Of a stretch of 64,000 nucleotides of DNA, positions 5,906-40,380 are shown one piece after another. Within the stretch, counting starts at the first letter, position 1. Each line of letters opens with the position of its first letter. The DNA is taken from positions 62,001-126,000 of the forward strand of contig JAHDQO010000012.1 of NCBI GenBank assembly GCA_018433765.1, in the 5' to 3' direction. The DNA comes from Tissierellales bacterium. Its GTDB lineage: Bacteria > Bacillota > Clostridia > Tissierellales > Sedimentibacteraceae. Made by a program: the position numbers and the translations under genes. The notes beneath the pieces are model-generated. The model did not search any database. It was not told the DNA's origin and saw only the letters and a program-made list of their open reading frames with translations.

Positions 5906-5949
5906 AATAAATCTCCTTAAAATAATTCCCAACTCTAAATTATATATAA

Positions 5950-5971
5950 GACAGCAGTTAAATCTGCTGCC
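5950..5971 (-). repeat. distal copy of the duplicated terminator hairpin (target duplication, copy 1)
   Basis: This 22-bp sequence, identical to 6125-6146, has a CAGCAG/CTGCTG stem. Read on the minus strand it is followed by a TTATATATAATT tract. It is taken as half of a long target-site duplication made when the 153-bp element inserted. Confidence 0.75.
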
Positions 5972-6124
5972 TCAGGCTATTGACAAACCCGAATTTCATC
6001 GTTGTTGCCTCAATCGAGAATGCTCACGTATTTCTATATATGCTCCGCTTACTCGCTTTCGGCACGCCTCGAACTTCGAGCTTCTCAAAAGCCTGTCATC
6101 TTGTTGACTTTGTCAACAATCTGA
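5972..6124 (+). mobile_element. 153-bp terminal-inverted-repeat element, copy 1
   Basis: The element begins TCAGGCTATTGACAAA and ends with the reverse complement of TCAGATTGTTGACAAA: a 16-bp imperfect terminal inverted repeat with 13 of 16 positions matching. It is flanked on both sides by the same 22-bp terminator hairpin (5950-5971 and 6125-6146). It has no open reading frame, so it would be non-autonomous. Internal hairpins: CGTAT/ATATG (6027-6031 with 6038-6042), CTCGAA/TTCGAG (6068-6080) and TTGTTGAC/GTCAACAA near the 3' end. A second copy at 40197-40349 has the same length and about 143 identical positions. Confidence 0.85.
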
Positions 6125-6146
6125 GACAGCAGTTAAATCTGCTGCC
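6125..6146 (-). terminator. terminator hairpin of the URO-D/thioredoxin gene (proximal duplicate)
   Basis: CAGCAG (6127-6132) pairs with CTGCTG (6139-6144) 38 bases after the stop codon of the minus-strand gene that ends at 6184. The original T-tract appears to be separated from it by the inserted element and now follows the other copy at 5950-5971. Confidence 0.6.
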
Positions 6147-6183
6147 TTTGAATTTTTAATTTTGCTTTTTAAATTGTGTATTT

Positions 6184-7536
6184 TTAAATTACCTTATCAA
6201 TTTCTTCGAACAATTCTTTTCTACTTGGTATTATTGAAGCCCATTTAAGTTTACCATTAATATATATTGAAGGTAAATTCTTAACTCCCATTTTTTTAGT
6301 TCTTGCTATATCTTCTTTAACTGTGTATTTGTATTCTACAACTTCAATCTTATCTCCATAATGGTCAGCTGCAACTAAAGCAGAATTTAACATGTAGGTA
6401 CAAGCTGCACATGTTTTAGCATCTAGAGTAAAAACTTCTACAAGTGGATTTGAAAGATTTTCATAATCAGGTAATTCAACTTCTATATCAATATCATCAA
6501 AAGCTTCATAATTTTTAACCATCTCTCTTACTTCGTTAGTTTGTCTTACAGCCTGGGCGACAGCTATTGTATTTTCTATTGGTATATCATATGGCATATC
6601 GCATCCGGGAGCAATTATTAAATTATGATTGTCCATATTGTCAATTAAGTCTACAACATATTTCATATTGTCCTGCTGATTACCATAAAGCATAGTAGTT
6701 GTGAGAGGAATATTTCCACCTATTGTAATATTATATTTATCCGTTATTTCTTTAGCTTTTTTTATATCAACGTTTTCATCTATAGAAATTGAATCAGGAT
6801 TAGTTTTACACATAACATCCATTTGAACAGTTGCATTACCACAAACAAAGAATGAAGAAAAAGCTCTTTTATTTCTTATATAGTCAAATACTGCTGTAAA
6901 AGATTCAGAAAGCATAGATTCAAAATGGTCTGGAGATACTTGACTTACAAGTGGATCAACTACAGCTATTACATCCATACCTGCGTCTACATAATAGTCA
7001 GTCATTTTACAGCATACTTCTGCACAGTATGAAACTAAATCTTTAACATATTGCTCATCCATAATCATGTCCATAAATATTTCACTGCCTCTTAAATGAG
7101 AAGCTAATGTAAAAGGTCCGCAAATTAGTCCGTATAATGCAGTCTCATTACCTATTTGAGCTTTAATTCTTTTCATTACATCTAAAATCATTGGGATTCT
7201 TCCTGATTGAGCAGTTGGTATTTTGCATTTACATGGTATCTTTTTTTCTCCCTGTAAAGGATGACTCATTACTGACGGTGGATTATCTTTTGCCCATAAA
7301 AGTTGACAACCCATTATTTCAGCTTCTATTTGTAAATCAAATATAATAGGCATTCCATCGGGAGTATAGAGCTTGTTTACTTCTAATAGAGATTCGTATA
7401 ATTTATCTCCATCTTTTAATACTTCTTCAGCGGTATATCCTTTTAATTTACCAGCATGAACTCCTGCAAATGGTATCCAAGGCACTCTTTCTGTTTTTTC
7501 ATGACGTAATGTTTTAAGTATTAATTCTTTTCCCAT
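6184..7536 (-). CDS. URO-D/MtaA-family corrinoid methyltransferase fused to a thioredoxin-like domain
   Basis: Residues 1 to about 355 form a uroporphyrinogen-decarboxylase-fold methyltransferase like MtaA/MtbA/CmuA, which move a methyl group from a corrinoid protein to an acceptor thiol or to tetrahydrofolate. Conserved segments are YGLICGPFTLASH, VVDPLVSQVSP and IAPGCDMPYDIPIENT (Cys312). The usual zinc motif HxC is FVC here (Phe230, Cys232), so one ligand is replaced. Residues from about 363 to 450 form a thioredoxin-like domain with CAAC (376-379) and the cis-proline segment NLPSIYING. The fusion suggests thiol chemistry on the acceptor or redox control. The start is ATG at 7536, five bases after GGAGG; the ATG at 7548 overlaps that site. 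Confidence 0.85.
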   Translation of the reverse strand: MGKELILKTLRHEKTERVPWIPFAGVHAGKLKGYTAEEVLKDGDKLYESLLEVNKLYTPDGMPIIFDLQIEAEIMGCQLLWAKDNPPSVMSHPLQGEKKIPCKCKIPTAQSGRIPMILDVMKRIKAQIGNETALYGLICGPFTLASHLRGSEIFMDMIMDEQYVKDLVSYCAEVCCKMTDYYVDAGMDVIAVVDPLVSQVSPDHFESMLSESFTAVFDYIRNKRAFSSFFVCGNATVQMDVMCKTNPDSISIDENVDIKKAKEITDKYNITIGGNIPLTTTMLYGNQQDNMKYVVDLIDNMDNHNLIIAPGCDMPYDIPIENTIAVAQAVRQTNEVREMVKNYEAFDDIDIEVELPDYENLSNPLVEVFTLDAKTCAACTYMLNSALVAADHYGDKIEVVEYKYTVKEDIARTKKMGVKNLPSIYINGKLKWASIIPSRKELFEEIDKVI

Positions 7537-7844
7537 TTTATCCTCCATATAAATTATGTATTTTTTTACTGTGATAACATTTTCATATATTGACTTGTTT
7601 TTATTATTATTTATTGATAATATAATACCAAATAAAAATGTTAATTTTTTGTATGGATTTAAGTAGTTTTTGTAATTTTTTTGTCGGTTTATTTACAAAA
7701 CATTCATTTTTGTTAATTTTATATAATTTTTATTGTAAAAAATTTATTTTTTTTTGTAATTTTATGCACGACTAGCTTGTTTATTTAGGTTTAAAGATAT
7801 AGTAGTTATTGTAATCAGATTAATATTTTAATAGAGGTAATATT
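7537..7844. promoter_or_regulatory. divergent intergenic region, corrinoid locus / PocR-AraC regulator
   Basis: This 308-bp gap lies between the divergent URO-D/thioredoxin gene and the regulator gene. It is very T-rich on the plus strand (about 7640-7770) and contains a repeated TTTTTTGTAATTTT-like segment near 7670 and again near 7750. Binding sites for the adjacent AraC-type regulator are expected here, but I cannot point to a clear operator or promoter. Confidence 0.35.
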
Positions 7845-39955: not shown

Positions 39956-40176
39956 AAGATATATATTGCTTAATGACTTTTTATTCATTATCATTTGCTG
40001 TTAAATTTGAAAAAGTTCTTAAAGAAAAAGGAATAACAGTGAAGCTAATACCAGTGCCAAGAAAAATTAGCTCAAGCTGCGGATTGTCTGGAAGATTTAA
40101 TCCTGAAGAAAAAGAAAAAGTTATTCAAATTTGTAAAGATAATATGATTGAATATGAAGGTATCTATGAAATATGA
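39952..40176 (+). CDS. DUF3343 selenium/sulfur-trait protein
   Basis: This 74-residue protein has the DUF3343 pattern: YCLMTFYSLSFAVKFEKVLK then KLIPVPRKISSSCGLSGRF with a conserved cysteine (Cys43). Members sit with YedE and TusA/YedF proteins in genomes that use selenium, where they may bind or pass on Se or S; the reaction is not settled. It is the last gene of the trio; its stop codon is immediately followed by the terminator hairpin that has been duplicated around the 153-bp element. Confidence 0.88.
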   Translation: MKDIYCLMTFYSLSFAVKFEKVLKEKGITVKLIPVPRKISSSCGLSGRFNPEEKEKVIQICKDNMIEYEGIYEI

Positions 40177-40196
40177 GCATCCAAAGCATTGGATGC
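40177..40196 (+). terminator. terminator hairpin of the selenium trio (proximal duplicate)
   Basis: GCATCCAA pairs with TTGGATGC around AGCA, one base after the DUF3343 stop codon. Its T-tract is now missing, because the 153-bp element follows directly. Confidence 0.7.
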
Positions 40197-40349
40197 TTAG
40201 ACTATTGACAAACCCGAATTTCATCGTTGTTGCCTCAATCGAGAATGCTCACGTATTTTAATATACGCTCCGCTTACTCGATTTCGGCACGCCTTGAAAT
40301 TCAAGTTTCTCAAAAGCCTGTCATCTTGTTGACTTTGTCAACAATCTGA
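40197..40349 (+). mobile_element. 153-bp terminal-inverted-repeat element, copy 2
   Basis: It begins TTAGACTATTGACAAA and ends with the reverse complement of TCAGATTGTTGACAAA (13 of 16 matching). It is exactly as long as copy 1 at 5972-6124 and differs at about ten positions. Several changes keep hairpins paired: CTTGAA/TTCAAG (40293-40305) against CTCGAA/TTCGAG, and CGTAT/ATACG (40252-40267), where copy 1 has a G-T pair. It is flanked by near-identical 20-bp terminator hairpins. Confidence 0.85.
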
Positions 40350-40380
40350 GCATCCAAAGTATTGGATGCTTTTGTTTTTT
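40350..40380 (+). terminator. terminator hairpin of the selenium trio (distal duplicate, with T-tract)
   Basis: GCATCCAA (40350-40357) pairs with TTGGATGC (40362-40369), loop AGTA, followed by TTTTGTTTTTT. It differs from the proximal copy by one loop base. It retains the T-tract and so is the copy likely to terminate transcription. Confidence 0.85.

Follow-up and report, generated by a model that had tools for sequence, protein, structure and literature searches.

A Short Element between Two Copies of a Hairpin

The window, that is, the whole stretch of 64,000 nucleotides that was analyzed, contains two copies of a short element, each bracketed by a repeated hairpin. Copy 1 occupies positions 5973–6123 on the plus strand (151 bp), and its outermost bases are CAGG...TCTG. 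It lies between two identical 24-bp sequences, AGACAGCAGTTAAATCTGCTGCCT, at 5949–5972 and 6124–6147, each consisting of a 22-bp core preceded by A and followed by T. The right hairpin adjoins the 3′ end of a minus-strand gene (6184–7548; Pfam URO-D), which encodes a protein of 454 aa in which a URO-D/MtaA-like domain is fused to a C-terminal thioredoxin-like domain with a CAAC motif. The match of this protein to Thioredoxin_3 is slightly under the cut-off, and its full-length orthologues are found in Dethiosulfatibacter, Acetobacterium, Anaerolineaceae, and Spirochaetia.

An earlier note on this DNA had placed the element at 5972–6124 (153 bp) with 22-bp flanks. The sequence is as it described, but the boundaries have shifted: the hairpin at locus L013 is bounded by T...T on both sides and that at L032 by A...C on both sides, and thus the duplication at copy 1 takes in one extra base per side. 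The note was right that the two flanks are identical and that each is a hairpin. As DNA, 5949–5972 folds at −5.5 kcal/mol (z −3.2), better than all 200 shuffles of AGACAGCAGTTAAATCTGCTGCCT, and a pattern scan flags the left hairpin as a terminator-like signal of the minus strand and the right one as a terminator-like signal of the plus strand.

The terminal inverted repeats of copy 1 are imperfect, namely CAGGCTATTGACAAACCC on the left (5973–5990, plus strand) and, read inwards, CAGATTGTTGACAAAGTC on the right (6106–6123, minus strand). Being short and multicopy, with terminal inverted repeats and no transposase reading frame, the element is a non-autonomous, miniature inverted-repeat transposable element (MITE) by the usual definition. 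Copy 2 lies at 40198–40348 on the plus strand, between a left hairpin at 40176–40197 and a right hairpin at 40349–40370 that is identical to it at 21/22 positions; this 22-bp hairpin is unlike that of copy 1.

Copies across the Genome

The genome is assembled as 4.19 Mb in 38 contigs, several of which end within a copy of the element. It holds at least 40 copies with 94–100% identity, and both flanks can be read in 32 of them. A duplicated hairpin brackets 30 of the 32, which bears out the earlier expectation, framed for this genome and its relatives, that doubled hairpins flank the element generally. At one of the exceptions, L014, the same 8-bp stem stands on either side and the loop has diverged; the other, L011, is the sole copy among the 32 without a hairpin duplication. 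Insertions are found in both orientations.

The hairpin sequences are unrelated and different at each site, while the body of the element is constant. The duplicated stretches have no sequence in common except for the outer A/T, nearly always A first and T last. They measure 18–27 bp, with odd and even lengths, and the length tracks that of arm plus loop. An exactly centered stem of at least six pairs occurs in 28/30 duplications (28 copies from this genome and 2 from the relative G001), whereas only 0.37% of length-matched intervals drawn at random from the window have one, and therefore the hairpin duplications are not due to chance. The duplications at L020 and L023 are off-center by 1–2 nt. 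Several palindromes reach 1–8 bp past the duplicated stretch, which indicates a joint that is close to the base of the stem but does not always coincide with it.

We also surveyed the position of 19 loci with 1.5-kb flanks. All 19 are intergenic. In 18 of them the element follows a stop codon, at a distance of 15–94 bp in 17 and of 273 bp in one. The outer flanks are A-rich ahead of the hairpin and T-rich behind it, as in intrinsic terminators. The doubled hairpins and this placement agree with the suggestion, made from copy 1, that the element chooses terminator hairpins. As part of the overall explanation that we favor, it is very probable on this sequence evidence that the targets are, in practice, the intrinsic terminators that closely follow stop codons.

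Some loci show further variation. At L012, L014, and L021, the stems of the flanking hairpins are identical or nearly so and the loops differ; at L012 the two loops are approximately reverse complements, which would be the result of an inversion of one hairpin. L036 and L038 hold longer versions of the element (224–225 bp), likewise between duplicated hairpins. At L018, L002, and L037, element ends or remnants abut an occupied or former hairpin site, which suggests that the same terminator was used repeatedly.

Relatives and Empty Sites

Divergent elements, either about 75% identical or alike only at the right end, are present in G001 (2), G002 (22), G018 (1), and G024 (one end), as well as in G048, which belongs to another family of the order (4 pattern hits). 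Where both ends can be read, hairpin duplications flank 2/2 elements in G001, 14/14 in G002 (one with a 1-nt indel), 1/1 in G018, and 6/7 in G048.

One of the G002 insertions, L075, has AGAAACCTTGCGGTTTCT on both sides and lies between a topoisomerase-III-like and an ssb-like gene, names that were assigned by eye from the translations. The same gene junction occurs in 15 relatives of the same genus, and neither the element nor a doubled hairpin is present at this junction in any of the 15. In nine, the G002 hairpin (GAAACC...GGTTTC) is clearly recognizable in one copy, with both stem and loop identical in G010 and G004; three have a degenerate form of it, and three a different single hairpin. 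Because these relatives lack the element and have one hairpin instead of two, insertion accompanied by duplication of the hairpin is established, and the prediction that element-free relatives should have one hairpin holds at this junction. For copy 1, no strict empty site was found among orthologues of the neighboring gene in the named genomes, where gene order differs; in Dethiosulfatibacter aminovorans, the orthologue is followed by a single, different hairpin.

These sites also bear on the idea that tandem duplication or gene conversion doubled the terminator, or that the two hairpins belong to the element itself. The few copies with identical stems and diverged loops (L012 and L014) would be in keeping with such an origin, but a hairpin that differs at every site around a constant element body is not, and the idea is contradicted by orthologous empty sites with one hairpin of the same sequence. 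We regard it as extremely improbable and favor insertion of a mobile element.

IS1182-Family Insertion Sequences as the Probable Mover

In G026 there is a 1.6-kb insertion sequence with the ends CAGATTGTAGACAAA and CAGAGTGAAGACAAA, bracketed by AAATAATGCAGAAATAACTGCATTATTT. A search with its transposase detected relatives in 75 of the 249 genomes of the order. We read 70 of these insertion sequence loci, and both ends were present in 44, of which 36 have hairpin duplications by a strict criterion; the count rises to about 39 if L131, L202, and L228 are added by inspection. The duplications measure 14–30 bp, odd and even, and here too the length tracks arm plus loop. For IS1182 itself, ISfinder reportedly lists palindromic targets and direct repeats that vary in length, the longest being about 60 bp. 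The three full-length transposases that were tested score 436–492 bits against NF033551 (cut-off 270) and match Pfam DUF772 and DDE_Tnp_1_6, and full-length copies with intact reading frames exist. At L081 in G026, an IS1182-type transposase is split into two overlapping frames of 222 and 289 aa, through either decay or programmed frameshifting. Three IS1182-type relatives from within the same family as the present bacterium (L078, L084, and L085) differ in their ends, and a duplicated hairpin is not evident around them.

Most of these insertion sequences have two distinguishable ends, one continuing as ...GACAAACCC and the other as ...GACAAAG, and the element retains this asymmetry. Its ends are identical to those of the insertion sequences at 13–17 of 18 positions, whereas the maximum among 20,000 random 18-mers was 13. 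The left repeat resembles the ACAAACCC end at up to 15/18 positions, and the best match (17/18) is between the right repeat and the ACAAAG end of the insertion sequence at L144. The element and the autonomous insertion sequences thus agree in their ends, and they agree in target choice and target duplication as well. Together, these similarities identify the element as a putative MITE derived from, or mobilized by, an IS1182-family insertion sequence.

The intergenic position at the 3′ end of genes would also be expected of a structured RNA or an immobile regulatory element. Rfam returned no match for the element up to E=1, and this reading is contradicted by the target duplications, by the empty sites, and by the ends held in common with transposase-coding insertion sequences. 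It hardly merits belief as an account of the element, although a secondary role as RNA is possible. Rather, we consider it very likely that a DDE transposase of the IS1182 family, with hairpin-forming inverted repeats as its targets, moves the element in trans.

The earlier note had attributed movement to an enzyme encoded elsewhere. The class of that enzyme can now be given, from the shared ends, as the IS1182 family, but the enzyme itself was not found intact in this assembly, where searches with PF13751, NF033551, and an IS1182 N-terminal query returned no intact transposase. The assembly does contain an 80-codon C-terminal IS1182 fragment (L035) and a weak match over 42 positions; the L035 fragment was rejected as the source of the helper, being without matching ends. 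Given that only these traces are present and that the contigs break at repeats, the helper may have been lost or, as a repeated sequence, may be missing from the assembly.

Comparison with Known Systems

Targeting of stem-loops is already known for the IS1182 family (PMC5678879, PMC4923244), and both papers refer to Siguier et al. on the palindromic targets of this family. Structure-guided DDE transposition was proposed for this family from few staphylococcal insertions, with loss of the hairpin (PMC5678879, PMC4923244). IS1272 and TnSha1 of Staphylococcus resemble the present system in having an IS1182-family transposase, a stem-loop target, frequently the terminator behind a gene, no consensus in primary sequence, and insertion in both orientations (PMC5678879, PMC4923244). 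However, at IS1272 insertions the hairpin is lost or replaced and nothing is duplicated, whereas the present element duplicates the whole hairpin (PMC5678879, PMC4923244). We rejected stem-loop replacement of the IS1272 type, as the hairpin occurs twice at 30/32 copies and once at the empty site. What we describe is the complementary outcome. It is documented by independent insertions that number in the dozens, by small elements of several lineages, by full-length insertion sequences, and by syntenic empty sites.

ISPse1 and other members of the family likewise share the transposase family, a length of 1.5–1.7 kb, and short inverted repeats, but ISPse1 makes 4-bp direct repeats in place of a whole-hairpin duplication (PMC3281130). 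Insertion sequences that target REP sequences also insert in or beside palindromes, but their target is one conserved repeat sequence (PMC1525189); membership in that group was rejected, as the hairpins here are unrelated between sites and no target sequence is conserved. IS200/IS605 elements, with subterminal hairpins, no inverted repeats, and no duplication, were rejected because the element has both terminal inverted repeats and a duplication. The element resembles the bacterial MITEs covered by a review, which are 100–250 bp long, have inverted repeats, occur between genes in many copies, and are moved in trans; a term search of that review found no hairpin-duplicating or IS1182-derived group (PMC10969869).

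In the literature searched, neither whole-hairpin duplication on many sites nor an IS1182-family MITE was found beyond a hypothetical pathway, drawn as an alternative to the hairpin loss of IS1272 (pathway b in Fig. 13 of PMC5678879). Both therefore appear to be new within that search, and prior mention, for instance in the main reviews of insertion sequences, is possible.

Proposed Mechanism of Insertion

As judged by comparing the loci, the element inserts with duplication of the whole hairpin, variable in length and centered on the dyad axis, and the autonomous insertion sequences behave alike. The hairpin thus appears to be recognized as a structure, by shape rather than sequence, and the copies of the element record, on the scale of a genome, the target choice of a transposase apparently guided by DNA shape. 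An ordinary duplex cut with a fixed stagger of about 22 bp, with the palindrome preference arising merely from symmetric binding of a dimer, would explain the mean duplication length of about 22 bp, the centering, and the nearly constant A at the start and T at the end. It does not readily explain odd and even lengths that range so widely in both the element and the insertion sequences and that follow arm plus loop, nor the lack of conserved sequence beyond the outer A/T, and we think it improbable.

We give about an even chance to a route through a cruciform, which corresponds to the pathway b mentioned above. In this proposal, a clade of IS1182-type transposases would recognize the extruded four-way junction of a terminator hairpin and join the transposon ends to the 5′ foot of each stem-loop, and gap filling would then copy the hairpin onto both sides. 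The length of the duplication would thus be set by the structure of the DNA, and the targets would be renewed; the case for this full scheme is evenly balanced. Because the duplication comprises the whole hairpin and its length tracks the hairpin, what these transposases recognize is now directly testable.

Short hairpins of 6–10 bp extrude poorly from duplex DNA, and IS200/IS605 and other hairpin-using elements act on single-stranded DNA at the replication fork. By this precedent, the hairpin could be attacked as single-stranded DNA of the lagging strand during replication and not as a duplex cruciform. Duplication of a whole hairpin, however, needs a DDE enzyme that joins both transposon ends to both strands, and insertions occur in both orientations; attack on single-stranded DNA is accordingly unlikely.

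Each junction retains a hairpin and one outer tract, such that a terminator-like signal stays on each side. Since this signal survives, the site would tolerate the insertion and remain a target. Insertion behind genes with the terminator-like signal kept would amount to a sequence-independent principle of low harm. Under the cruciform route, every event would regenerate two targets, and terminators would serve as a self-renewing safe harbor. Tandem arrays would then be possible. In G048, L096 and L103 are arrays of the form hairpin-element-hairpin-element-hairpin; unequal recombination would also produce such arrays, and they are the outcome expected of re-insertion into a regenerated hairpin.
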